Shown here piece after piece: positions 2,738-41,598 of a stretch of 51,008 nucleotides of DNA. The notes under the pieces are model-generated. The model saw only the letters and a program-made list of their open reading frames with translations. It had not been told where the DNA came from and ran no database searches. A program made the translations under genes and the position numbers. The stretch comes from Candidatus Ozemibacteraceae bacterium (GTDB lineage: Bacteria; Muiribacteriota; Ozemobacteria; Ozemobacterales; Ozemobacteraceae). Within the stretch, counting starts at the first letter, position 1; each line of letters starts with the position of its first letter. The stretch is from NCBI GenBank assembly GCA_937998695.1, contig CALLCO010000116.1, positions 1 through 51,008 on the forward strand, written 5' to 3'.

Positions 2738-2805
2738 CCGCGCCAGCCTCTGGCCCGACCGACACGAGGTCGGAAGTGCCCCCTGGCCGCCCGGGAGGGC
2801 GGCGC

Positions 2806-2828: not shown

Positions 2829-2843
2829 AGGAAGGTCTTCCCG

Positions 2844-3737: not shown

Positions 3738-3753
3738 CAGGACGCCGCGGCGC

Positions 3754-4758: not shown

Positions 4759-6956
4759 CCGAACCCACCTCCCCCGTGATGTTTTCCACGTATCTCTCCT
4801 GGCTCGACATCCCCGTCAAACGCCAGCGGACCTTCCTGCTCCAACTGGCGGGTTTTTCCGCCGTGGTGGTGTTGATTTTGCTGATCGACTTCTCGTCGTT
4901 CAGTGCCGACGTCGAGGAAGGCAAGGAATCCCCCAAGACGATCCTGTGTCCGCGCTCGATCTCGTTCATCGACGAGAAGAAGACGCAGGAACTGCGGCGC
5001 TCGGCGGAGGAAAAGATCGAACCGATGATCACTCACCTCGAGCATGCCGAGACCGAAGTGGTGGTCAAGCTCGAGCGATTCCTCGAGGAAGCCACCCTGT
5101 TTTACCATGCCCTCCGTGAGCAACCCGAAGCTGCCGAAGGGGCGATCGCCTCCTATTTCCCCAATGAACGCCTCCTGGAGCCAGATGGGTTGCGCGATCT
5201 GGTGGCCCTGACCCCATTGGAGTTCGACCGGCTGAAACGTTCGGCGGTCCAGATCCTGCGCAACTTTTCGCAGGAGGTCATCACCGCCCGTACCATCGAG
5301 CTGGTCCGGGGGAAGGTCGCCAACAGCACCAAGTCGCTTCCGGGGTCGTTCCGGTTTCGGCAGTTGATCGCCGATGTCGTCAAAAACGCCCTGTCGATCA
5401 ACGCCATCGAAGACGAGAAACAGACCCGCCAGTTGCGGGAAGCCGCGTCGCGCGCGGTGGCGCCCGTCATGCGGAGTTTCGCCAAGGGGCAGAAGATCCT
5501 CGAGAAGGGGGTCATCGTCACCGCCGATGACCTCTACGTGCTGCGCACCATCGAGAACCAGATCCACAAGAACCGGGTGCTGGCCCTGGCCGGCAACCTG
5601 CTGCTGGCCTCCCTGCTGGTGGTCATCTCGCTGGCCTACCTGCGGCTGTCGCGCCCGCAGATCCTCAAAGAGGCCGAGCTGTTCCGGTTGATCGGGGGGC
5701 TGTGGCTGGCCGCCATCCTCCTGGGGAAGGTCGTCTACTCGTTCGGGGATGCCTACGACCAGCCCACCCTGGCCATCCTGCTGACGCCCCTGCCCTCCAT
5801 CGGCATCCTGATGGCCATCCTGCTCGATTTCCAGGTGGCGATGTTCAATCAGTTGCTGTTGGGCCTGCTGATGTTCCTGGTCGCCCAGGCCAATGCCCGG
5901 TTCGCCATCGTCAGCCTGCTCGGCGGGGTGATCGGCATCCTCGCCTGGCGCACCTCGGCTCGCGATGCCACCATGCGCAGCACGGTGGGCTGGTCCGGCG
6001 TCAAGGTCGGGATCGGCAACAGCGTCGCCCTGCTGGGTCTGCTGCTGCTCGATGCCGAGAGTTTTTCGTTCATGAAGGTGCGTGAGATCCTCGAACTGGT
6101 TGGGTTCGGCTTCGGGAACGGCATCCTGTCGGGCATCCTGACGAATGGCGCCCTGCCCTACATCGAAAGTTTCTTCGCCCTGGCCACCAGTTCGCGCCTC
6201 CTCGAACTGGCCGACCTGTCGCAACCCCTGATCAAACGGCTGGCCGAAGAGGCCCCGGGCACCTATCAGCACAGCATCATCGTGGGCAACCTGTCCGAGG
6301 CCGCCGCCAATGAGATCGGGGCTGATGCCTTGCTGGCCAAGATCGGCGGGTATTTCCACGATATCGGCAAGCTGAAGCGGCCGGCCTATTTCGTCGAAAA
6401 CCAGACCAGCGGCAACCGCCACGATCAGGTGACGCCGTATATGTCCAGCCTCATCCTGGTCGGCCACATCCGGGATGGCCTCGACCTGGGCAAGGAATAC
6501 GGGCTTCCCGAGCGGGTGCTGTCGCTGATCACCCAGCACCACGGCACCACCCTGATCTCCTATTTCTATGAACAGGCCAAGACCGATACTGACGGACAGA
6601 AGGTCAACGAGGAGCGGTTCCGGTATCCCGGGCCCAAACCCCAGACCAAGGAGGCGGCCATCGTCATGTTGGCCGACTCGGTCGAAGCCGCTTCGCGCAC
6701 GCTGACCCAGCCGACCCACAGTCGCATCGAGGGGCTGGTCGAAAAGATCATCCAGAACAAGTTCAGCGACGAAAACCAGCTCGACGAGAGCGATCTCACC
6801 CTCAAGGACATCGAGCGGATCCAGCAGACCTTTGTCAGGGTGTTGTCTTCCATGTATCATGGAAGAATCGACTACCCAGGGAAACTCTCCAACCAGCCCA
6901 AGGGAGGATCAGATGGAAGTCCTCATCAACAACCGCCAAAAGAAGATCCGGCTTAA
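4755..6956 (+). CDS. pgpH: PgpH-type 7TM-HD phosphodiesterase (likely cyclic-di-AMP)
   Basis: PgpH proteins hydrolyse cyclic di-AMP. The product has an N-terminal membrane helix (about 28-46), a long extracytoplasmic 7TMR-HDED domain (about 50-275), a bundle of about seven helices (about 280-480) and a cytosolic HD domain. HD metal ligands are visible: YQHSIIVGN (H506), FHDIGK (H535/D536) and TQHHGTTL (H595/H596). The 733-residue length fits the family. Start is GTG overlapping the phoH stop. Substrate is inferred from family membership; no diadenylate cyclase lies in the window. Confidence 0.93.
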   Translation: MTEPTSPVMFSTYLSWLDIPVKRQRTFLLQLAGFSAVVVLILLIDFSSFSADVEEGKESPKTILCPRSISFIDEKKTQELRRSAEEKIEPMITHLEHAETEVVVKLERFLEEATLFYHALREQPEAAEGAIASYFPNERLLEPDGLRDLVALTPLEFDRLKRSAVQILRNFSQEVITARTIELVRGKVANSTKSLPGSFRFRQLIADVVKNALSINAIEDEKQTRQLREAASRAVAPVMRSFAKGQKILEKGVIVTADDLYVLRTIENQIHKNRVLALAGNLLLASLLVVISLAYLRLSRPQILKEAELFRLIGGLWLAAILLGKVVYSFGDAYDQPTLAILLTPLPSIGILMAILLDFQVAMFNQLLLGLLMFLVAQANARFAIVSLLGGVIGILAWRTSARDATMRSTVGWSGVKVGIGNSVALLGLLLLDAESFSFMKVREILELVGFGFGNGILSGILTNGALPYIESFFALATSSRLLELADLSQPLIKRLAEEAPGTYQHSIIVGNLSEAAANEIGADALLAKIGGYFHDIGKLKRPAYFVENQTSGNRHDQVTPYMSSLILVGHIRDGLDLGKEYGLPERVLSLITQHHGTTLISYFYEQAKTDTDGQKVNEERFRYPGPKPQTKEAAIVMLADSVEAASRTLTQPTHSRIEGLVEKIIQNKFSDENQLDESDLTLKDIERIQQTFVRVLSSMYHGRIDYPGKLSNQPKGGSDGSPHQQPPKEDPA

Positions 6957-7530
6957 CACGCATCGGATCCGCCTCATTGCCGAGGAGATCATGCGGTTCG
7001 AGGGCCTCCCGGACAAGGCCGAGCTGTCGCTGGTCTTCTGCGACGATGACTTCATCCAGAAACTCAACCACCAGCATCTCGGGAAGGATGAGCCCACCGA
7101 CGTCCTGTCCTTTCCCCTTGACGAGGACGAGTTCGACCACGGCGACCGCCTGATCGGCGACATCGTCATCAGCGTCGAGACCGCCTGCCGGCAGGCCCGA
7201 AAGCTGCGTCATTCGGTGGGCCTGGAGATCATCTTTCTCTTGATCCATGGTTTGCTGCACCTGAACAAGTATGACCATCAGCGCCGGGAAGACCTCAAAC
7301 GGATGCGCGACCGGGAGATGACCATCTTCTCGCATCTCGGCGAAAAGAAGATGCTAAAAGGGATCGAAGCCGGTCGCCACGTCCCGCTCATCGCCCGCTC
7401 CCAGCGCCCGGCGGCGACCAGCCCCCGGAAGACGGGGGAAAGTCGTCCCCGTGAGGGCGGGCGATTCCCTGGCGATCTCGCCCGGACGTCCGGGCCGCGG
7501 CCTCGCAAAACCTCCCGCACCGAGAATTGA
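6913..7530 (+). CDS. ybeY: Endoribonuclease YbeY with a basic C-terminal tail
   Basis: YbeY is a zinc-dependent RNase involved in 16S rRNA maturation and rRNA quality control. The metal site reads HGLLHLNKYDH, with the three histidines spaced as in the family; the usual Gly before YDH is Lys. TDVLSFPLDE and LIGDIVIS are also typical. The ATG at 6913 is preceded by AGGGAGGA and overlaps the end of pgpH by 44 bases. The conserved domain ends near residue 145, but the frame runs to 205 residues with an Arg/Pro/Gly-rich tail not seen in ordinary YbeY. Confidence 0.92.
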   Translation: MEVLINNRQKKIRLNTHRIRLIAEEIMRFEGLPDKAELSLVFCDDDFIQKLNHQHLGKDEPTDVLSFPLDEDEFDHGDRLIGDIVISVETACRQARKLRHSVGLEIIFLLIHGLLHLNKYDHQRREDLKRMRDREMTIFSHLGEKKMLKGIEAGRHVPLIARSQRPAATSPRKTGESRPREGGRFPGDLARTSGPRPRKTSRTEN

Positions 7531-9061: not shown

Positions 9062-10333
9062 GTGATCGTCAGGCTGGTTTCCTGTGGGCTGACCGTGGCG
9101 GCCCTGGCCCTGGTGGCCTTGTTCGCCGGGGCGGAAACGGGGCTGGTCTCGCTCGACCTGCAAACGTTGCGGCAGCGGGTCAAAGGGGGGGGGCGGCTGG
9201 CCGAGCGGCAACTGCTGGAGTTCGTTCGCAACCCGGAGCGGTTCCTCGCGCTGACGCTGATCGGCATCAACATGTCGCTGGTCTTGGCCACTTCATTGTT
9301 TTCCGAGCTGGTGGCCGGGTTCGACCCGGTCGTAACCTCGCTTGCCACCTCGGGATTGTCGGTCTTCATCTTCCTGGCCTGCGAACTCCTGCCCAAGACC
9401 GCCTTCGCGGGGCGGCCCCTCGAGCTGTCCCTGCGCTTCCTCCCACTCTATCGCTTCTTCGATCGGGTTCTTTCCCTGCCGATTCTTTTGGTAGCGGGGC
9501 TGACTCGCCGGTTCATGGATTCCCTGAAAATCGGCGGGGAGCGACGGAAACGGACGATCTCCCGCGAGGAGCTGCTCATCCTGCTGAGTGCCGGCGCGGC
9601 CTCGGGGGCCATCCGGGAGCGGCCCCATCGCATGGCGCGCGGGATCATCGGATTGAAACAGCGGTCTGTTTGTGAGATCATGAAGCCCCGGATCGCCCTG
9701 GTAACCCTGGAGGTGTCCGCCTCCCTGGCCCAGGCCCGGAAGGTGTTCGCGGAAACGGGCTACTCCCGGATTCCGGTCTACGAAGGGAATGTCGATCACG
9801 TGGTCGGGGTGGTGTATTTCAAGGATTTGTATCTGAGGGCCGGCGAGGGGACAGAACTGCGCGATCTGCTCAGCCGGCCGGAGATCGTGCCGGAGTTGGG
9901 CAACGCGTTCGAGCTGTTTCAGCGCATGCGTCGGCACAATTTCCAGGCGGCGGTGGTCCTCGACGAGTTCGGTTCGACCACCGGTCTGGTCACCCTGGAG
10001 GACCTCCTCGAAGAGGTGGTGGGCGAGATCGAGGACGAACTCGACGATTCCCCCTCCGACCTGAAGGTGCAGGCGGACGGCACCGTGCTGGCCCGCAGCG
10101 AAGTGGGGCTGGGGCGGTTTTGCGAAGAGACCGGCATCGAACTGACCGAAACGGAGAACCTCAATACCCTCAACGGGTTCATCCTGGCCCGCCTGGGGCG
10201 CATCCCCCAGACGGGGGAGTGCCTGCTTCTCGATGGGCACCGGTTCGAGATCCTGCAGGCTGACATGAAACGGACCATTTTGGTGAAGGTGCATATCGAG
10301 CATGAACCAGAACGACCCCCATCCGTTCGATAA
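9062..10333 (+). CDS. CNNM/CBS-domain transporter, CorC/HlyC type (second copy)
   Basis: This is a second protein of the same architecture as the gene 51 bases upstream, and clearly divergent from it. It has a CNNM membrane domain (FAGAETGLVSLDLQTLR; CELLPKTAF), a CBS pair (EIMKPRIALVTLEV to LDEFGSTTGLVTLEDLLEE) and a C-terminal CorC_HlyC domain, 423 residues in all. The GTG at 9062 is the first usable start and no strong ribosome binding site is visible. Tandem pairs of such genes are known in other genomes and may form heteromers (inference). The gene overlaps the DUF502 gene by 32 bases. Confidence 0.9.
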   Translation: MIVRLVSCGLTVAALALVALFAGAETGLVSLDLQTLRQRVKGGGRLAERQLLEFVRNPERFLALTLIGINMSLVLATSLFSELVAGFDPVVTSLATSGLSVFIFLACELLPKTAFAGRPLELSLRFLPLYRFFDRVLSLPILLVAGLTRRFMDSLKIGGERRKRTISREELLILLSAGAASGAIRERPHRMARGIIGLKQRSVCEIMKPRIALVTLEVSASLAQARKVFAETGYSRIPVYEGNVDHVVGVVYFKDLYLRAGEGTELRDLLSRPEIVPELGNAFELFQRMRRHNFQAAVVLDEFGSTTGLVTLEDLLEEVVGEIEDELDDSPSDLKVQADGTVLARSEVGLGRFCEETGIELTETENLNTLNGFILARLGRIPQTGECLLLDGHRFEILQADMKRTILVKVHIEHEPERPPSVR

Positions 10334-11021
10334 CGACCGGTGGCGGCAGGTGGCGGGTCTCGCCTTCGACGCTCTCGAGGCCCTGATCAACCGGGTCCGC
10401 ACTTTCTTCATCACCGGGGTGATCCTGCTGGTCCCGGCGGTGGTGACCCTGTTCATCATTTTCCAGTTGTTCCTGTTCGCCGATGGCTTCCTGGGGGAAT
10501 CGATCAGCCGGGCGATGGGCTACCGCATGCCCGGACTGGGGCTGATCGTCACCTTTTTGCTGTTCGTGGTGGCCGGGGCGGTCGGCCAGAACGTGCTGGG
10601 AAAGCGCCTGTGGCGATGGTTCGAGTATTCGCTCGAGAACCTGCCGGTGGTGCGGTCGTTGTATGTGGGCATCAAGCAGGTCTCGGATGTTCTGTTCCAG
10701 CAGCGGAAGTCGGAGTTCCGGCGGGTCGTGTTGGTCGAATATCCGCGGCGCGATCTGTGGATGATCGGGTTCGTCACCAGCGAACAGGCGACCTGGTATG
10801 CCACCGCCCATTTCACCGGGCGGCAGATGGTGTCGGTCTTCATTCCGACCACTCCCAACCCGACGTCGGGTTTCCTCATCCTGGTCGACCGCACGCAGGT
10901 CATCGACACTCCCCTGGGTATCGAGGAGGCCATGAAACTGGTGATCTCGGGGGGACTCGTGCAGACCACCCCCATCCCCCATCACGCCGGGACACCGGAT
11001 GAATTCACCATTCCCCACTGA
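10302..11021 (+). CDS. DUF502 family membrane protein
   Basis: This is a 239-residue protein of unknown function. Two transmembrane segments (about 36-60 and 77-98) are followed by a cytosolic region with the typical DUF502 segments NLPVVRSLYVGIKQVSDVLF, VVLVEYPRRDLWMIGFVT, VFIPTTPNPTSGF and TPLGIEEAMKLVISGG. The start overlaps the preceding gene, so expression is probably coupled to it. The role in the cell is not established for the family. Confidence 0.88.
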   Translation: MNQNDPHPFDNDRWRQVAGLAFDALEALINRVRTFFITGVILLVPAVVTLFIIFQLFLFADGFLGESISRAMGYRMPGLGLIVTFLLFVVAGAVGQNVLGKRLWRWFEYSLENLPVVRSLYVGIKQVSDVLFQQRKSEFRRVVLVEYPRRDLWMIGFVTSEQATWYATAHFTGRQMVSVFIPTTPNPTSGFLILVDRTQVIDTPLGIEEAMKLVISGGLVQTTPIPHHAGTPDEFTIPH

Positions 11022-11031
11022 GGACGTAGGC

Positions 11032-12945
11032 ATGTATCTTTCCTGTCGTTTCTTCCTGCGTTTTGGTCCGGGCCGGGCGTCACGTGCCCTGGCGGTGATG
11101 GGCCTGCTTCTGGTGACAATCCTGGCCAGGGCCCAGGACCTCGAGGACATCCGGGAATACTTGGCCCTGCGAGATGAGCTGACCCAGATCAAGGGACTGC
11201 TGGAACGATCCCTGTCGGATGAACCCGGCACCGGCAGTCTGGCCAATCCGGCGGCTGAGGTCGAAATCCAAGCCCGCCTGGCCCGGCTCGACGGAGAGAT
11301 CGCCCGCGTGGCCAACATGCCCGGGCCGTTGGCCGCCTACTATGCCGATCGCTTGCAACGCCTGGCGGCCGACTGCCGTGCCTTGTTCCCGTTCTTCGTG
11401 CAGCGTCTGGCCCTATCGGTGCGTCTGCCAATAGCCCCGGGACCAGCCAGCCTGCCCGCGCCCATCCCCGCCGCGCCGGTGGGGGGACTGGCGCCCGCTC
11501 AGCCCGCCCTTCCGCCATCCGTGCCGTCGACCCCCCAGGGGCCCGCGCCGCTGTCGGCCTCTCCGGCCCTGTCGGTAACCACCCCTCCCGCGGCGGGGTT
11601 TCCCGTTTCGCTGCCCTCACCAGGGCCCGCGCTGACGGGTGGCCCGGTCGTCTCTGGGCCTGACGCGGAGTTGTTGCGGCAACGCCGCGAGTTCTTCCAT
11701 CCCATCGGGGTGCGCACCCTCCTCGATCGCAAGCTCGCCCACGGGCTGCGGCCCGGCAGCCCTGGGGCCCTGCCCGGCCTGGTCCCCGATCTGCCACCTA
11801 CCACCGTTTCCGCCTCGATGGCCGCCGGTCTGCCGCTGCCGGCGCCGCCAGTCGCCAGCGCTCCCGTGCCTGTCATCACCTATCCCACGCTGCCCAAGTC
11901 GGTCGACGGGATGCCAGTGATCATCAATCCGCTCGAACCCTGGGACGGCCCCGATCCCCAGGTGCGGGAGACCCCGGGCATGCGGCCGTTGGCGGTCATG
12001 ATCGAGAATCACGTGCAGGCCCGCCCCCAGACAGCCCTGGATGAGGCCGAAGTGGTCTACGAGATTCCCGTCGAGGGGGGAATCACCCGGTTCATGGCCC
12101 TGTTCTATCACGTGCCGGGAATCATCGGCCCGGTGCGGAGTTGCCGGGAATATTTCATCGACCGGGCATTCGAGGTCAATGCCCTCTACGTGCACTGCGG
12201 CGGCAGCCCGAAGGGCTACGAGTATATCGGGAAGACCAAGATCTTCGCCATCGACGAGATCAGCAACGGGGGGCCGTTCTTCCGGGATCGCACCCGCAAG
12301 GCCCCGCACAATCTCTATGCCCGTGGCAAGGACCTGATCACTACCGCCAACCAGCGCCATCCGATGCAACTGCCCTACCAGCGACTTCCCCTGCGCTACG
12401 GCCCACATCCCTCCGCGGGGCCGGTCCCCGGGCGTGGGCTCGTCATCCGCTATCATGGCAACTACTCCGTGTCCTACCGGTTCAACCCCCGCTACAACCT
12501 GTATGATCGGTTCATGAACGGGGTCCAGCATCTCGACCGGGTGACCCTGAGGCCGGTTTCGCCCGGAACGGTCATCCTACAGGAGGCGGCCATGCGGGTG
12601 GTCGACGAGAAGGGACGCCAGGAGATCTCCTTCATCGGGCAAGGGAAGGCGTTCATCCTGCATGGAGGCACCCTGCTCCGCGCCACCTGGAAGAAGGATG
12701 GGATCCGCGAGTTCACCCGGTTCTTCGATGAGCATGGCCAACCGGTGATCTTTTCGAACAAAGCGCCGGTCTGGATCCAGGTCGTGTCGCCCCAGAACGC
12801 CGTGGTGTTCGATCCCCCCCTGGGGCCGGCCAAGGTAGCGGCCGCCCCGGTGGCCGCCGCCTTGGCCACCGTGGGTGGGGTGGCCAGCGAGGCCGCGCCC
12901 GTGACGGCCCAGGTCGCCGGGCCGCCGCCGGGAGCAACGCCATGA
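11032..12945 (+). CDS. Exported DUF3048 (YerB-like) protein
   Basis: DUF3048 proteins such as Bacillus YerB are exported proteins of unknown function. The N-terminus (MYLSCRFFLRF then a hydrophobic stretch ending LARAQ) is a good signal peptide. A helical segment follows, then about 170 residues of Pro/Ala-rich low-complexity sequence, then the DUF3048 core (about 300-590) with PLAVMIENHVQARPQTAL, GPVRSCREYF and RKAPHNLYA. I chose ATG 11032, which has GAGGACGTAGG upstream, over an in-frame ATG at 10999 that would overlap DUF502 and spoil the signal peptide. The stop overlaps the era start (ATGA). Confidence 0.86.
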   Translation: MYLSCRFFLRFGPGRASRALAVMGLLLVTILARAQDLEDIREYLALRDELTQIKGLLERSLSDEPGTGSLANPAAEVEIQARLARLDGEIARVANMPGPLAAYYADRLQRLAADCRALFPFFVQRLALSVRLPIAPGPASLPAPIPAAPVGGLAPAQPALPPSVPSTPQGPAPLSASPALSVTTPPAAGFPVSLPSPGPALTGGPVVSGPDAELLRQRREFFHPIGVRTLLDRKLAHGLRPGSPGALPGLVPDLPPTTVSASMAAGLPLPAPPVASAPVPVITYPTLPKSVDGMPVIINPLEPWDGPDPQVRETPGMRPLAVMIENHVQARPQTALDEAEVVYEIPVEGGITRFMALFYHVPGIIGPVRSCREYFIDRAFEVNALYVHCGGSPKGYEYIGKTKIFAIDEISNGGPFFRDRTRKAPHNLYARGKDLITTANQRHPMQLPYQRLPLRYGPHPSAGPVPGRGLVIRYHGNYSVSYRFNPRYNLYDRFMNGVQHLDRVTLRPVSPGTVILQEAAMRVVDEKGRQEISFIGQGKAFILHGGTLLRATWKKDGIREFTRFFDEHGQPVIFSNKAPVWIQVVSPQNAVVFDPPLGPAKVAAAPVAAALATVGGVASEAAPVTAQVAGPPPGATP

Positions 12946-32033: not shown

Positions 32034-34946
32034 TCAGGAGGCGGTCAGTGAGGCGGGAAACTCCTTCTTCAGGTCGTTGAGCCAGAAGCGGAACGCCTCG
32101 ACCTCCGAGCCGACGATGTCGGTCAAGATGACCGCTTCCCGATGGCGGAAGTTCTTGAGGATGAATTCCGATAGAATGACCAGGCAGCCCGGGTCGTCGA
32201 ACAACGCCTTCAACTGCACGAAATAGCCATGAAAGACCGCCTGGCGGGCCTGGCGCTCAGCCGGGGTGAGCTGGCTGCCCCGCCACCATTCCTTGAACGT
32301 GGGGATCTGTAGGAGAAGTTGACGCAGGCAGGTCTTGCCGCGGGGCTGGCGGGCCCAGATGAACAGGATATCGAGCATCGCGGTCAACCGGGTGTCACGG
32401 TCGAGGGACCCGAGGCGGGGCAGCAGTTCGCTCAGATCGCGTTGTCGCAGCACGAACCGCTGGTTGAACTTGCCCGACCCCTCGATGAACCCGGCGACGA
32501 AGTCCGACCAGAACTTGGCCTGGACGATGCTGGGGATGCCCAGCAGGTTGCCCAGGGGCGAAAAGGCGGTGGCGAACGGCCAGGCCATCAGGGTGCGCCA
32601 GAAATTGGCCCGCCGGACCCGTCGGTCGAAATTCCGGATCCGGTTATGGGTGGTGATGTACAGGCCATTGGCGACACACAGAAAGAGGAATTTGACCAGT
32701 TCGAAGATCATCCCCCCCTGGATCAGAGTGAACCCTAGCAGATGGGGCACCTCGACCGTTCCCTCGGGGTAAGGCCAGAGGGCATCGAACTGGAGTTTGA
32801 CCAGGCCCAGGATGGGGACGCTGAAGCCTGTCCAGAACAAGGATTGAGCGAGGTTGTCCCAGTTGACGTTGCGCAGGGACCAGTTCTTGAAATCGGAACC
32901 GGACGAAGCGATCAGGTCGACCAGGAGGTTGCGAATGCCGGTGATGAAGAACCACAGGCTGGCGAAGGTCATACCCGTGACCAGCATGAACTGGAAATTC
33001 ATCCAGGTGAAGGCGACGGCGAACCCGACCAGGATGCGCAGCACACTCTTGAGGGTCGGGTTGAGGTAGGTCCAGAACTGGGTGAAGGTGATGACCTTGG
33101 AGTCGGGCTCGTCGCCGACCAGGTTGCGGATGGGCTTGCCGATCTTGCCCATGCAGATGACGTCGAGGCTTTCCTCGTCGAGGGCTTCCTCGGGCACCTT
33201 CTTCCCTTTGGTCACCACCAGCTTGGCGATGGGCCGGGCCAGCTTGTAGTGCGAGTCGAGGAAGGGCTGCCGGATGGCGGGCGGGATGCTCGAGGTGCGG
33301 ATGAACCCCATGCCCGGGATGGCAGGGTCGCGGCCGGTCGAGTCGCTGCCGCAGATGGGCACGATGCCCCGGCCCTGGATGGCGGCCAGGGCGGGTTGGA
33401 CCAGGTCAGGGGTGGCCTCGGGAATCGCGTTCTGTTCGAAGAACCGCGTCAATTCGTCCGCGGGGCCGTTGTTCAGCAGGAAGATGAATTTGTTGAAGAC
33501 GATCAAGTCGTTGGGATTGCGATGGGTGCTGTCGCGCAGGTTGAGCGTCTCGACGTGGGTGATGCGGCTGGCGTGGCGCAGCAGGTTGACCATCGATTCC
33601 TTCAGGCCGATCTCGAGGGGGTGGATCCAGACGGTTTTGCCGCCCTGGGCGATCAGGGTGTCGAGCAGCGGTTGCTCGTCGAGGAAATCACTGTCGTAGT
33701 CGCCCGCCTCGCCGATCTCGATGTACTGGGAGAACAGACCCCATGGCTGCATGGTTTCGTATTGCTCCCGCACCGACTGATACTGAGCGAGGAGGTTCTT
33801 CATCTCCCACTCGCTGTAGATCCCACGATTGAATCGCTCGCGGGCGGCGCTGACCTGGGCCTTCAGCTCGAGAACCCGGTTGTGGAAGATCTCCTTCAGT
33901 TTCTGGTAGAGCACCTCCCCGAGGTGGACCCGGTTGGCCTGCCCGGAGACCACGACCCGGTCCAGGTCTTCCAGGGTGACGGGGGGCAGCCAGCAGGGGC
34001 TCTGTGGCGGATAGCCCGCGTTGAGCTTGGGGCGCTGCACCGTGTTGAATCGCTCGAGGGCGGTCGCCATCGACTTGCGCCGGTTGTCGGCGTTGCGTTT
34101 GAGCCCTTGCAGGAACGGGCCGAAGACCTCGTGGCGGTCGGCAAAGAACGCGAAGAAGGCCCGGCTGTCCTCCATGTCGGGGGGGACGTACATGTAGTGC
34201 CGGCGGGCTCCGCTGCGGCCGACGCTGAACTCGATGCCGATCTGGACGCGGATGCCGAGCAGTTGGCCGGCGGTGAGGGCTTCGTGGATGACCAGCGGTT
34301 CGTCGATGTTCGAGTAGACCAGGGTCAGGCTGGACATGCCCTTGACGAAGGCATCGAGCAGGACCTGGGTCGGGGTCTTGCGCCCTTCCGACAGGAAGTC
34401 ATGGACGTGGTCGTCCCAGCCAAGGTCGAGGTCACGCAGGGGCAGGTCCTCCTCGGGCACCTCGATCATGTGGAACCGGTTCAGGAACTGCCGGATGACC
34501 GCTTCCTGACCGAACGAGGCGAGACCGAAATCGGCCAGGGCCTCCATCTGCCGCCGCTTGTCGCCCTGCGCCTTGACCGCCTCCTTCATCAGGTTGATCT
34601 GGACGCGGGCGGTATTGAGGGGCATGTTGATGGTCTTGGCGTGGAGGGATTGCTCGAGCAGCATCTTGAGGGCGGTCAACCGCTCCTCGGCATTTTGGGG
34701 CACCTGGTCGCGGGCGATCTTGATGTAGGCCTGGGCAATGTTCAGACGTCGCTTGCCGAGGTCCTTGATGAAGCCGCCGGGATGCGAGAAGATGCGGGTG
34801 CCGATCTTCTGGATCGGCTCCTCGAGCTTGTGGTTGAGCGCCTCGGCCATGGCTTCGATTTCGCCGTTGAAGCTGAGCCAGGCGAAGATGCCTTGCAGGA
34901 GGGAGAGGATCACATCCCGCACCAGCCGCCATGTCTTCTTGATCAT
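32034..34946 (-). CDS. Large membrane protein with a degenerate PHP-type domain
   Basis: I do not recognise a named family. The 970-residue protein starts MIKKTWRLVRDVILSLLQG. Residues about 175-545 follow the PHP phosphoesterase pattern: DDHVHDFLSEGRKTP (H180, H182), VYSN at 210-213 where TDHN is expected, GIEF (E239), a helical insertion with a coiled coil (about 340-400), WIHPLE (H442) and GSDSTG (D535; usual SDSH). Four or five membrane segments lie at about 634-676, 703-722, 740-760 and 783-808, then a helical cytosolic tail. Several metal ligands are lost, so catalysis is doubtful. A longer reading to 35282 would overlap glmM and lacks support. Confidence 0.7.
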   Translation of the reverse strand: MIKKTWRLVRDVILSLLQGIFAWLSFNGEIEAMAEALNHKLEEPIQKIGTRIFSHPGGFIKDLGKRRLNIAQAYIKIARDQVPQNAEERLTALKMLLEQSLHAKTINMPLNTARVQINLMKEAVKAQGDKRRQMEALADFGLASFGQEAVIRQFLNRFHMIEVPEEDLPLRDLDLGWDDHVHDFLSEGRKTPTQVLLDAFVKGMSSLTLVYSNIDEPLVIHEALTAGQLLGIRVQIGIEFSVGRSGARRHYMYVPPDMEDSRAFFAFFADRHEVFGPFLQGLKRNADNRRKSMATALERFNTVQRPKLNAGYPPQSPCWLPPVTLEDLDRVVVSGQANRVHLGEVLYQKLKEIFHNRVLELKAQVSAARERFNRGIYSEWEMKNLLAQYQSVREQYETMQPWGLFSQYIEIGEAGDYDSDFLDEQPLLDTLIAQGGKTVWIHPLEIGLKESMVNLLRHASRITHVETLNLRDSTHRNPNDLIVFNKFIFLLNNGPADELTRFFEQNAIPEATPDLVQPALAAIQGRGIVPICGSDSTGRDPAIPGMGFIRTSSIPPAIRQPFLDSHYKLARPIAKLVVTKGKKVPEEALDEESLDVICMGKIGKPIRNLVGDEPDSKVITFTQFWTYLNPTLKSVLRILVGFAVAFTWMNFQFMLVTGMTFASLWFFITGIRNLLVDLIASSGSDFKNWSLRNVNWDNLAQSLFWTGFSVPILGLVKLQFDALWPYPEGTVEVPHLLGFTLIQGGMIFELVKFLFLCVANGLYITTHNRIRNFDRRVRRANFWRTLMAWPFATAFSPLGNLLGIPSIVQAKFWSDFVAGFIEGSGKFNQRFVLRQRDLSELLPRLGSLDRDTRLTAMLDILFIWARQPRGKTCLRQLLLQIPTFKEWWRGSQLTPAERQARQAVFHGYFVQLKALFDDPGCLVILSEFILKNFRHREAVILTDIVGSEVEAFRFWLNDLKKEFPASLTAS

Positions 34947-35055
34947 CTGCTGTATCCGTTTCCGTGATGATGCCGTGACAACAGACAATACCACCCCCCA
35001 TCCCGGGGCGGGGGCCACCGTCGGGAAGTCAGGGGTGGAAGTCGTTGTCGGCGCC

Positions 35056-35084
35056 AGTATACTCCCCGGGTGCCGGCCCGACAA
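35056..35084 (-). promoter_or_regulatory. Candidate promoter of the PHP/membrane protein gene
   Basis: On the minus strand TTGTCG (35079-35084) and TATACT (35056-35061) are 17 bases apart. The -10 sits in the palindrome AGTATACT (35056-35063), which overlaps the region upstream of glmM. The predicted leader is about 100 bases. Confidence 0.4.
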
Positions 35085-35156: not shown

Positions 35157-36506
35157 ATGGGCAGACTGTTCGGCACCGACGGGGTGCGGGGCGTGGCCAA
35201 CCGGTATCCGCTGACGGGCGAAACCGCCTTCCGGATCGCCCAGCTGGCCACCCGGCACCTGTTGGACAACCACAAGAAACACAACCGGCCGATGTTCATC
35301 GGCAAGGACACTCGCCTATCCGGCGACTTCCTCGAGCACGCCGTGGCGGCGGGGGTGGCTTCGGTGGGCGCGGAAGCCCGCCTGCTCGGGGTGGTTCCCA
35401 CTCCAACGGTGGCTTTCTTGACCCGCGAGTTGCAGGGCATGGGGGGGATCATGATCAGTGCCTCCCACAACCCGTATCCCGACAATGGCATCAAGATCTT
35501 CAGCCCCGACGGCTACAAGATTCCCGACGCCGTCGAGGAAAAGATCGAGGCCGACTTGGCGGCGGGCGGCAAGAGTGACGGGCCGGTCGGCCAGGACATC
35601 GGTCGGATTGTGGCCGACACCGCTTCGGTCTCCTTCTGGTTGAGCAGCCTGGCCAAGGTGCTGGGCGAGGCCCCCTCGACCCGTCGCCTGAAAGTGGCCA
35701 TCGACTGCGCCAACGGGTCCCTCGCTCCCTGGGCGCCCAAGTTCTTCGCCGATCTCGGGTTCAGCGTCGATGCCATCGGCACCACCCCCACCGGCATCAA
35801 CATCAACGAGAAGGTCGGCTCGACGCACATCCAGGCCCTGGCCCAGGTCATGGCCCGCGAGCATTTCGACGTCGGGTTCTCGTTCGACGGCGACGCCGAC
35901 CGGGTCATCGCCATGACCACCCAGGGCGACATCATCGACGGCGATTACATCCTGGCCATCGTGGCCCGCTACCTGAAACAGCAGGAACGATTGCCCGGCA
36001 ACGCCCTGGTGACCACGGTGATGGCCAACCTCGGCCTCGACATGGCCATGAAGAACCTCGACATCCGCATCTTCAAGACCAAGGTGGGCGACCGGTTCGT
36101 GCTCGAGGAGATGAAGAAGACCCAGGCCGTGGTCGGGGGCGAGCAGTCGGGGCACATCATCCTGTCCGATTACGCCACCACCGGCGATGGTCTGCTGACC
36201 GCCTGCTTCCTGCTCAAGGTGATGCGGGCCACCGGGGCCACCCTGAAAGAACTCAGCGAGGTCATGTCCAAGCTGCCCCAGGTCTTGGTCAACATTCGGG
36301 TCAAGAACAAGAATTTCGAGGCGGTGCCGCAGGTGCTCGACGAGATCCGCACTACCGAACGACGACTGTCGGGGCGGGGGCGCCTGCTGGTGCGCCCCTC
36401 GGGCACCGAGAACCTCGTGCGCGTGATGGCCGAAGGCCCCGACGAAAAAGAGATCCGGCACCTCGTCGACGGTCTCGCCAAGGTCATCTCCGCCCACCTC
36501 TGCTAG
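35157..36506 (+). CDS. glmM: Phosphoglucosamine mutase
   Basis: GlmM converts glucosamine-6-phosphate to glucosamine-1-phosphate on the way to UDP-GlcNAc, for peptidoglycan and LPS. The 449-residue product has RLFGTDGVRG, the phosphoserine loop ISASHNPYPDNGIK (S103), the metal loop DGDADRV and the phosphate-binding RPSGTENLVRVM. ATG 35157 is chosen because AAGGAG lies 6 bases upstream and the protein begins as usual. The gene after it starts 10 bases downstream with a strong ribosome binding site. Confidence 0.97.
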   Translation: MGRLFGTDGVRGVANRYPLTGETAFRIAQLATRHLLDNHKKHNRPMFIGKDTRLSGDFLEHAVAAGVASVGAEARLLGVVPTPTVAFLTRELQGMGGIMISASHNPYPDNGIKIFSPDGYKIPDAVEEKIEADLAAGGKSDGPVGQDIGRIVADTASVSFWLSSLAKVLGEAPSTRRLKVAIDCANGSLAPWAPKFFADLGFSVDAIGTTPTGININEKVGSTHIQALAQVMAREHFDVGFSFDGDADRVIAMTTQGDIIDGDYILAIVARYLKQQERLPGNALVTTVMANLGLDMAMKNLDIRIFKTKVGDRFVLEEMKKTQAVVGGEQSGHIILSDYATTGDGLLTACFLLKVMRATGATLKELSEVMSKLPQVLVNIRVKNKNFEAVPQVLDEIRTTERRLSGRGRLLVRPSGTENLVRVMAEGPDEKEIRHLVDGLAKVISAHLC

Positions 36507-36515
36507 GAGGAAGGA

Positions 36516-37163
36516 ATGGCAGAGCCCCGCCCCGTCCCGGGAACCCGCCCCGACCGCTGGCTGTCGCTGTCGGTCCTGGTCCTGTCGGTGGCGGCCCTCG
36601 CCCTCACTCCCGGGTGCGGCTGCGGCCGTCAGACCACCGACCGCGCCCTGGGCCCCGCGACCGGTCCCGGGCAACCGGCGGCCGACCCCGCCCGCCCCAC
36701 CCAACCCGGCATGGGAGCCCCATCCCGGGGTCTGTCCATCCTCGAGTCGGCCTTCATCACTTCGCCCACCGAGGGGTTTGGCCGGGGCAAAGCCGGCCCC
36801 GGGGCCGGCGGGGCGGTGTCCCGGCAGGTGGGGGCCGATTTCGAACGGAAGTTCACCCAGGGCGTGGAACTGATGGAACGCGGTGATTACAGCGATGCCA
36901 TGAATCTCTTCCAGGAGATCATGACCCAGTATGCCAACACGGAAGAGGCAAGCGTGGCCGAATACTGCATGGCCGAGATCCATTTCCGCAACAAGTCGAA
37001 CCAGCTGGCTTTGCAGGCGTATCAGCGCATCGTCGAGAAATATCCCAACTCCCCCGCCGCCCAAAACGCCCGGGAAGGGATCGAATACCTCCAGACCTTC
37101 GAGGAGCACGAGAAGGAATATGTCTCCCCCGACGTGGAAGACCGCAAGCGCCGCGGGTTCTGA
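36516..37163 (+). CDS. TPR-containing probable lipoprotein (BamD/YbgF-like)
   Basis: A 215-residue exported protein. The hydrophobic signal segment (about 16-31) ends LTPGC, so C34 could be lipidated, although the residue at -3 is not ideal for a lipobox. A Pro/Gly-rich linker is followed by at least two TPR units (about 113-190: GVELMERGDYSDAMNLFQEI, AEIHFRNKSNQLALQAYQRI, VEKYPNSPAAQNA). This is the pattern of BamD and YbgF-type proteins. GGAGGAAGG precedes the ATG. It is followed by pseudopilin genes, so a pilus-assembly role (PilF-like pilotin) is an alternative. Confidence 0.7.
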   Translation: MAEPRPVPGTRPDRWLSLSVLVLSVAALALTPGCGCGRQTTDRALGPATGPGQPAADPARPTQPGMGAPSRGLSILESAFITSPTEGFGRGKAGPGAGGAVSRQVGADFERKFTQGVELMERGDYSDAMNLFQEIMTQYANTEEASVAEYCMAEIHFRNKSNQLALQAYQRIVEKYPNSPAAQNAREGIEYLQTFEEHEKEYVSPDVEDRKRRGF

Positions 37164-37629
37164 CCGGTTTCGGCGCGGCTTCACGATCATCGAGGCCATG
37201 CTCGCCCTGCTGATCGTTGGGGCGGGCATCGTACCCGTCCTCGCCCTCTTTCTGAGCGGGTCCCGCACCGTCGAGAAGGGCGGGTTGATCCTGTCCGCGA
37301 CCATCGCCGCCCAAAACATCCTCGACCGCGCCAAGAGCGATTCCTTCCTATGGGACAACATCCCCCTCACCGTCGATCTGCCCAGTGACAAATATCCCCA
37401 GTTCAGCCTGCCCCGGTTCTTCCGCGACAAGTACAAGGCCTCGGGCACGCTCGACATCTCGCTGGCTCCCGACCACACGGTGCTGGGCACCGGCGACAAG
37501 GAGACCAACCTCGTCCAGGTAACGGTCATCCTGAACTGGATCGAGAACGGGTTTCCCCGCACCACCCGCCTGGTGACCTACCGGGCCAACACCAATTCCT
37601 TCAAACTGAAAACCTCGGCCAAATTTTGA
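37120..37629 (+). CDS. Type IV pilin-like (minor pilin/pseudopilin) protein
   Basis: A prepilin with a 20-residue leader ending in RRG before FTIIEAMLALLIVG; the glutamate at +5 and the hydrophobic helix are canonical for prepilin peptidase (PilD) processing. The rest (about 120 residues) is a beta-rich head without cysteines; it resembles PilV/GspI-type minor pilins in size. I chose ATG 37120, which overlaps the TPR gene by 44 bases; no other start codon in this frame lies close to the leader. Confidence 0.8.
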   Translation: MSPPTWKTASAAGSDRFRRGFTIIEAMLALLIVGAGIVPVLALFLSGSRTVEKGGLILSATIAAQNILDRAKSDSFLWDNIPLTVDLPSDKYPQFSLPRFFRDKYKASGTLDISLAPDHTVLGTGDKETNLVQVTVILNWIENGFPRTTRLVTYRANTNSFKLKTSAKF

Positions 37630-37646
37630 ACGGGAAAGGCGGTTCC

Positions 37647-38258
37647 ATGCGACGGTCCGGATTCACCCTGGTCGAGCTGGCGGTGTCGACGGTCATCGCC
37701 GCTCTGATCGGTCTCGTGATCGTCCTCGTCTACCGAGCCAACCTCGGGACCTGGCGCTGGGGCCAGAAACACATGGAGTTCACCCAGAAGGTCCAGTTGG
37801 CTATGAAGCAGGTCTTCACCGACATCAAGCGGGTCAATCCACTCGTCTCGCAGGATGCCCGCGGCAACCTGTGGTTCCAGGGCGAGAAAATCGGCGACCT
37901 CTTCCCCAATCTCGTACGCATCTATGACACCGACAAGAACCCCGACAACGGCGGCGAGGAGATCGTTTTCTACCATGCCATCTTCACCCGTCCCGACCAG
38001 AAGATTCATGTCCGGCTGTTCCTCGAGAATGGGGCCCTGCTACGGGAAACCACCGACCCCAACGGAACCAAGCGGCGGGTCGTCGTCTCCGACCGGGTCG
38101 AGAACCTTCATTTTCTGGCCAACCCGCTCGACATCTACGAAGTGGTGGTCCAGATGACCATCATCGATGACAACGACCCGAGAATCCGTGAAGACCTGAA
38201 CTTCGGCGTCCATCTCGATACCGATCTGATCTGCGTCAAATTCATCCATTCGACGTGA
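37647..38258 (+). CDS. Type IV pilin-like (minor pilin, PilW/GspJ-like) protein
   Basis: The short leader MRRSG is followed by FTLVELAVSTVIAALIG, a textbook class III prepilin signal with E at +5. The 203-residue length and the head, with strands such as EEIVFYHAIF and IHVRLFLENGALLRET, resemble PilW/GspJ minor pilins. ATG 37647 has GGAAAGGCGG upstream; an in-frame TTG at 37626 would lengthen the leader. The stop overlaps the next gene (GTGA). Confidence 0.82.
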   Translation: MRRSGFTLVELAVSTVIAALIGLVIVLVYRANLGTWRWGQKHMEFTQKVQLAMKQVFTDIKRVNPLVSQDARGNLWFQGEKIGDLFPNLVRIYDTDKNPDNGGEEIVFYHAIFTRPDQKIHVRLFLENGALLRETTDPNGTKRRVVVSDRVENLHFLANPLDIYEVVVQMTIIDDNDPRIREDLNFGVHLDTDLICVKFIHST

Positions 38259-38881
38259 GGACGGGAGGCGGCGTGACGACGTTCGGCGGAAGGCGGGCCC
38301 CGGGAAGCGGGCCGGTCACCCGGTGGGCCCGGGGCGGGTCCGCGCAGGAGCGCCATCCCTGGCGCCCGCGGCCCACTTCCCCCGTCCTGGGGGTCGTTCC
38401 AGCCCGCGCCGGATTCATCGCCTTCTACGCCTTCATCATGCTGCTCATCCTGGGCATCTTCGGCATCTCCTATTGGCTGGTCTCTCGCCTGACCACCGAC
38501 ATGATCTTCAAGGAAGCCCACCGTATTCGGGCCCGCAACTTCGCCCAGGCCGGGATCGAGAAGGTGATGATCAACATCCTGAACCAGTACCGGCTGGGGA
38601 ACGCCAAACTCGACTACCCCGGAAAGTACACGATCGAGCGCATCGACAAGGAGTACAACGTCCAGTTCGGGGACGGACGCTACCGGGTCGAACTGGTCAG
38701 ACCCTACGTGCTTCCGGGCAGTTTCAAGGAGATGTTCGGGGTGCCGTACTACAAGAATCAGGTGCTGATAGGGTTCTACGACGTGTGGCAGGTGGTGGTG
38801 GTGGGCGAGGTGCCTGGCGCCAACATCTCGGCACGGGTCGAGACCTTGGTCAAGGTGATCCGGAATTTCGTCCAGTACTGA
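38255..38881 (+). CDS. Pilus-associated PilX-like membrane protein
   Basis: A 208-residue protein. An Arg/Pro/Gly-rich N-terminus of about 50 residues leads to RAGFIAFYAFIMLLILGIFG, a pilin-like helix lacking the +5 glutamate, as in PilX/GspK proteins. The segment after it (ARNFAQAGIEKVMINILNQY) is the usual PilX/GspK helical continuation. The GTG at 38255 overlaps the previous stop; a GTG at 38273 with GGGAGG upstream is an equally good start. Its place after two prepilins supports a tip-complex role (inference). Confidence 0.65.
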   Translation: MRTGGGVTTFGGRRAPGSGPVTRWARGGSAQERHPWRPRPTSPVLGVVPARAGFIAFYAFIMLLILGIFGISYWLVSRLTTDMIFKEAHRIRARNFAQAGIEKVMINILNQYRLGNAKLDYPGKYTIERIDKEYNVQFGDGRYRVELVRPYVLPGSFKEMFGVPYYKNQVLIGFYDVWQVVVVGEVPGANISARVETLVKVIRNFVQY

Positions 38882-38935
38882 CCGCCGCCCGGCCATCCCA
38901 TCCGGTCGTCCAACGTTGTCGTGAGGAGGGTGCCC

Positions 38936-40249
38936 ATGAACCGACTGACTATCCTGCTGGTCGCCATCGCCCTGGGGCTCGGAGCCGCCGGCCCGATCGC
39001 CGCCCAGTCGGGCGATAGCGGGCCCCGCTTCAAGGGGTTTTCCGCCAAGGTCACCGGCGACATCTACGGCCAGCCCCGGGTCTTCGACGACATCGACGGC
39101 GACGGCATGCGCGATTTGATCTTCGGGGCCACCGACGGGCAGATCCATATCTTTTCGGCCAAGGGGCATGAGATCCTGCGGCCTCCCAACTGGCCCAAGA
39201 AGGTGAACTCGCCGATCCTGTCCGAGGTCACCGTGGCCGATCTCGACAATGACGGCGAGCCCGAGGTGCTGGCCACCGCGATGAACGGGAAACTCTACTG
39301 CGTGGCCCGCAACGGGCGCGAGAAATGGTCGCTGCCCTTGCGGGGCAAGATCCGCCTGTCGGCTCCCGAAGTGGCCGATGTCGATGGGGGGGGCAACTAC
39401 AACGTCTTCGTCGGCACCGGTTTGGTCGGGGCGAAATCGGGGATGGTCAGCCGGATCGACAAGGACGGCCGTCTGATCTGGGAAGTCCCCGTCACCACCT
39501 CGGTCTCGGGGAAGATCGTCACCGCCGATCTCGATGGCGACGGCACCAAGGAGATCCTGACCAAGGACGACAGCGGCAAGGTCTACGTTATGCAACTGTC
39601 GGGAACGAACGCCCGCGGCTGGCCGATCAATACCGTGCCCAATCTCACCTGGCCCTTCGATGTGGGGGCGGGTGATGTCAATGGCGATGGCGTGAAGGAG
39701 ATCTTCACCACCACCCCCGACAAGCGGTTCCTGTTGTGGACGAACAGCGGCGATCTGCGCAGCGAGTTCAAGCTGACGGATGGGGCCCATTCCGCTCCCC
39801 GCCTGGCCGATCTGAACGGCGACGGGAAAGACGAGTTCATCATCGGCCAGGCCGACGGCACGGTCATGGTCTGCGACGAAAAGGGGAAGCCTCTGCCTGG
39901 GTGGCCGTTCGTGACCAAGCACTCGATCTACCACACCCCGCAGATCATCGACCTGGACGGCGATGGCAAGCTCGAAGTCGTGTACACCGCCTGGAACCCC
40001 GAAGGCCAGGGCAAGGAGGCCGGCTACATCATGGCCCTGACCGCCGATGGGCGGGTGCTGCCAGGGTATCCGCGCTTCATCGGCAAGGCCATCGCCCCGC
40101 TGACCTTCGCCGATCTCGATGGCGACGGCTACCTCGAGATGATCGCGGCGGGCGGCATCAACTACACCGCCGACCAGCTGCACGTCATTCCCACCCATGC
40201 CCGGGTGGCCCTGAAGATCGCCGTGCTGGGGGCGGAGGTGTCCTTTTGA
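38936..40249 (+). CDS. Secreted FG-GAP/VCBS beta-propeller protein
   Basis: A signal peptide (1-26, ending PIAAQ) is followed by about seven repeats with integrin-like Ca2+ loops: DIDGDGMRD, DLDNDGEPE, DVDGGGNYN, DLDGDGTKE, DVNGDGVKE, DLNGDGKDE, DLDGDGKLE and a last DLDGDGYLE. This predicts a seven- or eight-bladed propeller of 437 residues, exported and calcium-binding. ATG 38936 has GAGGAGGG upstream. It lies between the pseudopilin genes and a secreted TPR protein, so it may be a tip adhesin or a secreted partner of the pilus-like system (inference). Confidence 0.85.
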   Translation: MNRLTILLVAIALGLGAAGPIAAQSGDSGPRFKGFSAKVTGDIYGQPRVFDDIDGDGMRDLIFGATDGQIHIFSAKGHEILRPPNWPKKVNSPILSEVTVADLDNDGEPEVLATAMNGKLYCVARNGREKWSLPLRGKIRLSAPEVADVDGGGNYNVFVGTGLVGAKSGMVSRIDKDGRLIWEVPVTTSVSGKIVTADLDGDGTKEILTKDDSGKVYVMQLSGTNARGWPINTVPNLTWPFDVGAGDVNGDGVKEIFTTTPDKRFLLWTNSGDLRSEFKLTDGAHSAPRLADLNGDGKDEFIIGQADGTVMVCDEKGKPLPGWPFVTKHSIYHTPQIIDLDGDGKLEVVYTAWNPEGQGKEAGYIMALTADGRVLPGYPRFIGKAIAPLTFADLDGDGYLEMIAAGGINYTADQLHVIPTHARVALKIAVLGAEVSF

Positions 40250-41598
40250 CCGCCCGCCGGCTGACCCTCGGCTGGCTCGTCGCCCTGCTCGGGGTGACCG
40301 CGCTGGTGGGCCTCTTCCCTGGCCTTGTCCAGGCCCAGGATCCCAGCGACGTGATCGAATTCATGGCGGCCGGCAAGAAGGCCTATGAAAAGGGCGACCT
40401 GGCCGGGGCCGCGGTCGAATTCGAGAACGTTCTGCTGCTCGACCCCCGTCACTTCGACGCCAAAGTCTGGCTGGTGCAGATCTACATCGATCGCAAGCAG
40501 GCCGACAAGGCCCGCAAGCTGCTCGCCGAGCTGCAGCGACAGGCCCCCGGCCACGCCCGGGTGGCCGCCCTGGCCCGCCTGGTCGGCCCCGAAGGGGACC
40601 TCCCCCCGGCCCACAAGGAGAGCGACCTGGTCGTCTACGAGACCCTGACCCTGATCGGCTCGGGTACGCGACTGCGGCCGTATGGGCTGGTCGTCCCCGA
40701 AGGCAAGGTCGCCAAACCCCGACGAACCGGTGAGCAGGAAGACGAGATCGACCTCTCCCTCTCGGAGGGGGAGGGCGGGGCCGCCTCTGGGCCCGATGGG
40801 GCTCTGGCTACGATCATCGCCGACGACGGACCCCTGGGGCCGGTGTTCGAGCGGTGGGCCGAAGAGGGGCTGAACCCCGCGCTCGAAAAGTATTTCGAGA
40901 TCATCCTGGCCCGTCGTGACCTGATGTCGATGGACGACCGGGGGCTCCTGCGCAAGGGCATGGAGACCTATCAACCCAAGCTCGAGGCCAATCCCAAGGA
41001 CAACGAGGCACGCTTCTACCTCGGCATGATCTTCTACCTCAATGGGCTGTTGGAAGATGCCCGCCAGACGCTCGACCCTCTGCGCCAGGAGCAGACCCCC
41101 TATGATGGCCAGATCGCGCCCGTGCTGGCCGACCTCGACCGCAAGAAGGCGGACGAGGAGGCCCGCCTGGCCGCCATCCAGAAAGAGAAGGAGGCCCAGG
41201 AGGCCGCCCGGGCGGCCGAAAAGGCCCGGCAGGAGGCCGCCGCCATCGCCGCCAACCTGAGCGGGGCCAACAACCCGACCGCCAGCCCCGCCGGCCCCCT
41301 CAATCCGGCCGACGTCCTGCACAACGAGGGCTACGATCTGTACAAGAAGGGCCAGCTCGACCAGGCCATCGAAAAGTTCCAGGCGGCCATCACCCAGAAC
41401 GACCGGGAGCCCAAGTTCTACTACCACATGGGCCTGGCCCTCACCGACAAGGGGCTGGCCGGCAGCATCGATGCCTTCGATCGGGCCATGGAGGCCTTCA
41501 ACAAGGTCATCAGCCTCGAGCCCGGTGGCAAGATGGCCAAAGACTCCGAGGTGATGATCCGCGACATCGTGGCCGCCAAAAAGTCGCTCAAGAACTGA
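40246..41598 (+). CDS. Exported TPR protein with a coiled-coil centre
   Basis: A 450-residue protein. The signal peptide (MTARRLTLGWLVALLGV to LVQAQ) starts at a TTG at 40246, which overlaps the propeller stop (TTGA) and has GGAGG 7 bases upstream. TPR units are at about 37-105 (AGKKAYEKGDLAGAAVEFEN), then near 225-290, then an Ala/Lys/Glu coiled coil (about 300-335), then two more TPRs (NEGYDLYKKGQLDQAIEKFQ). Probably periplasmic and scaffolding. It is the last gene of the glmM-pseudopilin run. Confidence 0.75.
   Translation: MTARRLTLGWLVALLGVTALVGLFPGLVQAQDPSDVIEFMAAGKKAYEKGDLAGAAVEFENVLLLDPRHFDAKVWLVQIYIDRKQADKARKLLAELQRQAPGHARVAALARLVGPEGDLPPAHKESDLVVYETLTLIGSGTRLRPYGLVVPEGKVAKPRRTGEQEDEIDLSLSEGEGGAASGPDGALATIIADDGPLGPVFERWAEEGLNPALEKYFEIILARRDLMSMDDRGLLRKGMETYQPKLEANPKDNEARFYLGMIFYLNGLLEDARQTLDPLRQEQTPYDGQIAPVLADLDRKKADEEARLAAIQKEKEAQEAARAAEKARQEAAAIAANLSGANNPTASPAGPLNPADVLHNEGYDLYKKGQLDQAIEKFQAAITQNDREPKFYYHMGLALTDKGLAGSIDAFDRAMEAFNKVISLEPGGKMAKDSEVMIRDIVAAKKSLKN

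Follow-up and report, generated by a model that had tools for sequence, protein, structure and literature searches.

A PHP-fold protein with a predicted membrane module, from a distinct bacterial family, appears to keep two of the three usual metal sites

The window analysed here, a stretch of 51,008 nucleotides of DNA from Candidatus Ozemibacteraceae bacterium (assembly GCA_937998695.1, contig CALLCO010000116.1, positions 1 to 51,008), carries at 32034..34946 on its minus strand a gene whose 970-residue product (P0001, the window protein) joins a PHP domain, of a type that cleaves phosphate esters with the help of metals, to a membrane module, a gene assignment supported by the open reading frame (ORF), by relatives in other genomes and by the ratio of nonsynonymous to synonymous divergence (dN/dS). 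As read on the minus strand the start codon is the ATG at 34946, the last codon lies at 32037 and the stop codon at 32034-32036; the frame stays open further upstream, to a GTG at 35282, and the starts of the nearest relatives coincide with ATG 34946. An antisense plus-strand frame of 741 amino acids (32742-34967) overlaps the gene, and of the two readings it is the minus-strand one that has relatives. The original prediction, made by a model from the sequence alone, gave these coordinates exactly, with no strand, and the motifs that it listed are found at the residues it named: HVH (180-182), VYSN (210-213), GIEF (237-240), IHP (441-443) and GSDSTG (533-538). Below, other members of the family are referred to by locus (L) and genomes of the window's phylum by genome (G) numbers.

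The gene stands alone, as had been proposed, flanked by a plus-strand V-type ATPase operon and a divergent glmM-like gene, names that were read from the sequences. The proposal that it has its own promoter is plausible but unproven: a promoter scan gives one sigma-70-like match on the minus strand (35056..35084, 9 of 12 positions), weak evidence when shuffled sequences give 0.4 matches by chance. The glmM and V-ATPase surroundings are common to several Riflebacteria loci and resemble chromosome order, and a search for plasmid carriage gave no match in PLSDB. We note that pseudopilin-like genes and a repeat protein, again named from their sequences, lie beside glmM at 36500-40250 of the window, and that several Riflebacteria loci have this block in common.

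Four parts can be distinguished in the product, all coordinates being on the minus strand. An N-terminal helical domain (residues 1-165; 34452..34946), delimited by the AlphaFold model and by invariant columns, is followed by the PHP domain (166-575; 33222..34451), which is defined by the model, Foldseek, profile comparison and alignment; next come the membrane module (603-846; 32409..33140), seen in the model, in hydropathy and in invariant columns, and a C-terminal helical domain (847-970; 32037..32408) seen in the model. The modelled barrel strands of the PHP domain are residues 176-182, 204-211, 233-242, 249-254, 437-441, 464-469 and 529-533, and an enlarged helical insertion (257-432; 33651..34178; model and alignments) separates the fourth from the fifth. 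The membrane module, whose presence had been proposed and which model and hydropathy bear out, contains hydrophobic helices at residues 630-652, 655-682, 696-723 and 746-770, as well as a long helix at 806-846. The proposed helical insertion is also there, although it is not foreign to the fold: canonical PHP proteins carry residues at the same place, their GRPHxARxL aligning with GQxSxxHLxE of the insertion, and only part of it is extra, with 191 residues separating the two beta-site histidines in the window protein versus 115 in the canonical PHP protein L029. A helical insertion with a GRPHxA-like motif at this place is a mark of PHP proteins of the RNase AM or nucleotide-phosphatase type, and the one seen here is longer.

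The window protein has a PHP fold, as the original prediction had guessed from motif order. AlphaFold2, run on a 61-row alignment (A2, comprising 60 loci and P0001), yields a model with a predicted local distance difference test score (pLDDT) of 92.6 and a predicted template modelling score (pTM) of 0.90 that contains the seven PHP-type barrel strands. Foldseek comparison of this model with the PDB at an expect value (E) of 0.001 or below returns 3e0f (5.9e-6; template modelling score 0.65 over the target), 3o0f (2.2e-5), RNase AM 9etk (3.2e-5) and 2yb1 (3.2e-4), of which we take 3e0f and 2yb1 to be PHP proteins; the structural check that had been suggested thus finds a PHP barrel, nearest to RNase AM and related phosphoesterases. 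Lower matches include more PHP structures (7ug9 and 3e38, so named in their own titles, Pol III and PolC) among weak helical-repeat matches whose probability is at most 0.28. When hhalign compares the family profile with a pair of canonical PHP proteins (L029, encoded in this genome, and L022 of G018), the probability is 95% (E 5.2e-8), and comparison with L029 alone gives 70% (E 4e-5) for set A1 and 22% (E 9e-4) for a second clade of the family. In the reverse direction, the family profile recovers ORFs of 276-345 amino acids in 10 genomes (E 7e-5 to 1e-3), and all five of those that were fetched exceed the Pfam PHP cut-off. An alignment with six canonical PHP proteins completes this evidence.

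Sequence searches with single models are far less telling. No match to the Pfam PHP models reaches the curated cut-off in P0001 or in the 19 A1 and 35 A3 members scanned; the NCBIfam PHP models match P0001 at E 0.002-0.004 only, and the NCBIfam PHP-type phosphatase model matches 13 of 35 second-clade members (best E 0.0029), these scans covering P0001 and the 35 second-clade members. Searches of PDB sequences are weak as well, with E 0.87 when the single sequence is the query, 0.96 with A1 and 0.037 with A2. The statement that no described family has this shape agrees with these results, since no named model in Pfam or NCBIfam applies beyond the weak PHP similarity and chance-level matches. 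PADLOC and PHROGs, searched with P0001 and one or two relatives, give nothing significant (best E 0.014), and among open-licence papers none was recognised as describing this architecture.

The metal ligands of No-PDE, according to excerpts of PMC11656708, are H61, H63 and D260 for the alpha metal, E135 bridging alpha and beta, H142 and H203 for beta, and D68, H93 and H262 for gamma, and the alpha and beta arrangement of Sb-PDE and No-PDE served as the reference for the window protein. When three family members are aligned with six canonical PHP proteins using MAFFT, the columns of H180, H182, E239, H250, H442 and D535 are invariant, and by this alignment all six alpha and beta ligands are present: H180 and H182 of H180-V-H182 (34401..34409) and D535 of GSDSTG (33342..33344) for alpha, E239 (34230..34232) as the bridging ligand, and H250 (34197..34199) and H442 of IHP (33621..33623) for beta. 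At the gamma site the first position, canonically Asp or His, is E187 (34386..34388); at the place of the second ligand, S212-N213-I214 (34305..34313, with alignments pointing to 214), there is no histidine; and at the third the canonical histidine is replaced by T537 (33336..33338). The gamma set (Asp or His, His, His) is thus incomplete, and the window protein lacks the full nine-ligand set of PHP proteins of the RNase AM or nucleotide-phosphatase type.

TDH and SDxH are the gamma-site histidine motifs of PHP proteins, and the two departures singled out in the original prediction, VYSN in place of TDHN and the lost histidine of SDSH, therefore belong to one metal site. Of its proposal that the domain is non-catalytic or altered, the second half stands, the alteration being that of the gamma site, whereas the first finds no support in a protein in which all the alpha and beta ligands are present. 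By alignment, then, the window protein appears to keep two of the three usual metal sites.

Ligands were counted across the family in 73 rows, comprising P0001 and 72 of 78 loci (L036, L061, L062, L063, L081 and L109, being partial, broken or wrongly picked ORFs, were excluded), which identity to P0001 divides into 31 near and 42 second-clade rows; L082, whose frame is doubtful, was kept in the counts and dropped from the tree. The alpha ligands are kept in 27 of the 31 near rows, and alpha and beta together in 20; in the second clade alpha is kept in 34 of 42 rows and beta in none. The histidine of SDxH at 537 is absent from all 73. Acidic residues (Glu or Asp) fill the first gamma position in 26 of the 31 near rows; in the second clade this position is Lys in 37 of 42. 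Near rows have no histidine at 212 or 214 (0/31), with one at 213 in four and at 211 in one. As aligned, none of the rows seen has all its gamma ligands, and the gamma losses differ by clade. We note that 18 of the 42 second-clade rows have a histidine at 214 (YYNH or similar), aligned with that of canonical TDH, though both beta histidines are gone. A tree of 72 rows, built by the 'quick' method, fully separates the two clades; on it the alpha- and beta-complete label needs six changes, at least five of them forced by starred branches, and loss of alpha or beta ligands has therefore recurred. Two copies of the family gene are carried by bacterium ADurb.Bin157, the second being L048 at 10001-12853 (the same gene as L023).

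Beside the first gamma position lies a family signature, G188-R189-K190 (34377..34385), with R189 and K190 two and three residues past it; R189 is found in 29 of 31 near and 41 of 42 second-clade rows, and K190 in 30 and 41 respectively. Residues that are invariant or almost so include D178, H180, H182, D183, G188, R189, K190, Y211, E239, E466, N469, G545, M546 and G547. Basic side chains in place of metals are a published pattern in variant polymerase PHP domains, in which, at six of the nine ligand positions, arginine replaces the ligand more often than any other residue (PMC3666897, in excerpt). The basic residues of the signature may likewise stand in for the gamma metal.

Comparison with known systems brings out what is shared and what is added. 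RNase AM (9etk, 7ug9), 2yb1 and 3e0f/3o0f have the same PHP barrel, the HxH, GIE, HP and SD motifs and residues inserted between the beta ligands; the PDB chains of this group are 206-287 residues long, whereas the window protein adds the helical N-terminal and membrane C-terminal modules. Canonical genomic PHP proteins carry the gamma histidines, which the window protein lacks, and have a shorter insertion. Sb-PDE and No-PDE have a full trinuclear zinc site and, in the excerpts of PMC11656708, no membrane module is mentioned, unlike the window protein. The PHP domain of E. coli Pol III alpha also retains the fold with metal ligands missing and basic residues at the lost sites, although it differs at positions 1, 4, 5, 7 and 9 of the nine, whereas the window protein is without the gamma histidines only (PMC3666897, in excerpt).

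The membrane module modelled alone reaches a pLDDT of 92.0. No PDB fold was found for it (best structural match E 0.17), and family models give no match beyond chance level for the C-terminal part of 36 members; SpecificRecomb (PF10136), which we take to be a bacterial family with a membrane part and considered as its source, was rejected at an hhalign probability of at most 1.2%. Its invariant residues include R672, N673, H767, N768, R771, R784, K811 and E822. Lysines and arginines number two after transmembrane helix (TM) 2 and six after TM4, with none in the TM3-TM4 loop, which fits a topology with both termini inside and the PHP domain in the cytosol.

Two peptide patterns led to 154 loci confirmed across contigs, of which 78 distinct loci were kept, with protein lengths of roughly 900-1050 residues. 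Record titles with the family include Riflebacteria, Wallbacteria, Spirochaetota, Myxococcota, Desulfovibrionaceae and relatives, Lentisphaeria and Kiritimatiellota; by these titles the distribution search that had been suggested gives a family that spans several phyla rather than one lineage. In the window's phylum, matches came from 22 of 39 genomes, the window genome included. The match in G018 is an ordinary PHP protein of 303 amino acids, so that 21 of the 39 carry the family; that in G030 is a distant member resembling the second clade, and matches in G004, G008, G030 and G032 are cut by contig ends. The gene is absent from some nearly complete genomes of the same taxonomic family, G011 (96%) and G012 (95%). 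Among genomes sampled from other phyla, matches were found in 32 of 297 for that of Desulfovibrio sp. A2, in 20 of 193 for that of L082 (titled Myxococcota), 10 of them long and 10 only short (276-345 amino acids), and in 1 of 398 for that of Parasutterella, namely the genome around which the sample was drawn.

The gene is under purifying selection. Against L035, at 90% identity, dN is 0.055 and dS 0.579, an omega (dN/dS) of about 0.095 by the Nei-Gojobori method (NG86), and by domain omega is lowest in PHP (0.044), followed by the C-terminal (0.064) and N-terminal (0.09) domains, and highest in the membrane module (0.208); for L033 the N-terminal, PHP, membrane and C-terminal parts give 0.167, 0.157, 0.259 and 0.165 in that order. 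PHP omega is thus the lowest in both of the two nearest relatives, whereas at the deepest distances it is the membrane module that is most fixed.

The explanation that we favor, at about an even chance of being correct, is that the window protein, anchored in the membrane and PHP in fold, belongs to a distinct bacterial family and acts as a two-metal phosphoesterase in the inner membrane, facing the cytosol. We infer an active metal-dependent enzyme with its catalytic domain on the cytosolic face. In other PHP enzymes the alpha and beta metals activate the attacking water and the gamma metal is a Lewis acid for the leaving group (PMC11656708, in excerpt). Here the alpha and beta metals (held by H180/H182/D535, E239 and H250/H442) would activate water for attack on phosphorus, while the charge of the absent gamma metal would be supplied by the conserved R189-K190 and, in the second clade, also by the lysine at 187; the membrane module would fix the protein next to a phosphate substrate that is a lipid or lies near the membrane, and might also take part in its selection.

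Several observations weigh against this explanation. Ligand identity rests on alignment, and H250, which HMMER and MAFFT pair with the canonical histidine, is left unpaired by hhalign (three positions off against L029, further with the two PHP proteins); hhalign of the C-terminal half of the PHP domain alone is not significant (7%, E 0.005), with GSDSTG pairing with GSDYHG. L048 lacks H182, D535, H250 and H442, four of the six alpha and beta ligands, and its frame is open over its full length. Against L034, where dS is saturated, dN is 0.188 for the N-terminal domain (the slowest), 0.329 for PHP, 0.329 for the membrane module and 0.416 for the C-terminal domain, so that PHP equals the membrane module and exceeds the N-terminal domain. 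That there are four TM helices is a reading of hydropathy and the model rather than a TM prediction, and the topology is uncertain because the family mean makes segment 775-801 hydrophobic (1.40), unlike the window protein (0.52); a helix there would alter the topology. In E. coli Pol III, ligand loss accompanies lack of nuclease activity (PMC3666897, in excerpt).

Further points against an active phosphoesterase favor an alternative that we consider possible, if on the unlikely side: that the protein is a pseudoenzyme whose PHP domain binds a metal or phosphate ligand without hydrolysis and senses or scaffolds, while the membrane module does the work. Alpha and beta ligands have been lost repeatedly on the tree, 11 of the 31 near rows lacking at least one and all 42 second-clade rows lacking beta; of 36 columns invariant over 61 sequences, 19 fall in the membrane module, the others lying in the PHP (8), N-terminal (7) and C-terminal (2) domains; and the PHP domain of E. 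coli Pol III, which lost ligands yet stays structural, offers a precedent (PMC3666897, in excerpt). This alternative fits poorly, however, with the retention of all six alpha and beta ligands in the window's lineage, with the low PHP omega relative to L035 and L033, and with an alpha set that is kept in most rows even of the second clade. A non-catalytic role may hold for part of the family.

More doubtful still is the suggestion that the membrane module is the working part, a novel membrane enzyme or transporter for lipids or phosphates fused to a PHP phosphoesterase, with the PHP domain turning from catalyst to regulator in part of the family; the fixity of the module at depth is what prompts the reading that it does the work.

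Neighboring genes hint at substrates, and from them can be drawn a role, improbable as we judge it to be, in the metabolism of glycerol-3-phosphate, glycerophosphodiesters or inositol phosphates, with the protein hydrolyzing lipid head groups or products of their breakdown. Because automated ORF choice took antisense frames in GC-rich surroundings, neighbor lists were read by eye, with NCBIfam naming for selected genes only. In the second clade GDPD-like genes follow L068 and L069, and GlpA and GlpC follow L068; Ugp transporter genes lie in one arrangement beside L072, L073 (whose contig seems to be that of L117), L116 and L118, and in another beside L074; and L104 is preceded by an inositol-phosphate-synthase-like gene and an IPCT/DIPP-synthase-like fusion. 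UgpB/A/E/C at L074 and GlpA/GlpC at L068 are above the NCBIfam cut-offs, the GDPD and IPCT/DIPPS genes owe their names to strong matches that fall short of the equivalog cut-offs, and the inositol-phosphate-synthase-like protein at L104 has no NCBIfam match, its name being read from sequence. Against such a role, the Ugp cases amount to two arrangements only; L068-L070, L072 and L073 form one clade; and among the neighbors listed, glycerol- or inositol-phosphate genes were not seen by eye beside most other members. In the window's phylum PF01658 occurs in two of 39 genomes, neither with the family gene, and an inositol pathway was rejected for the window's branch; a weaker UgpB relative occurs in 32 of 39, none over the curated cut-off, and a true UgpB was rejected there too. 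The V-ATPase and glmM-like neighbors of the window's branch give no pointer to a substrate. We commit to none because both neighbor links failed in the window's phylum.

Three loci deserve a note of their own. At L104 (6383-9334, in a Deltaproteobacteria-titled bin) both inositol-phosphate genes precede the family member on the same strand; at L074 (5249-9733, in a KSB3-titled bin) the UgpBAEC transporter operon lies directly before it, again on the same strand. An inositol-phosphate-synthase-like gene is also found near L106, where (2454-7414) a gene partly similar to NodU, at a score below cut-off, shares four bases with the start of the family member, an arrangement seen in translational coupling.

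Last, that the protein is not PHP at all and its motif order coincidental is scarcely credible: in its favor is the absence of a Pfam PHP match from every scanned member, and against it are the Foldseek matches, the hhalign results, the reverse profile search with its Pfam-passing ORFs and the ligand alignment.

The family joins a PHP domain to a membrane module for which no PDB fold match was found, and scans of Pfam and NCBIfam returned no model for it. Judged by alignment, its members range from two complete PHP metal sites through one to none, and such natural variants would make it possible to test whether each metal is needed.

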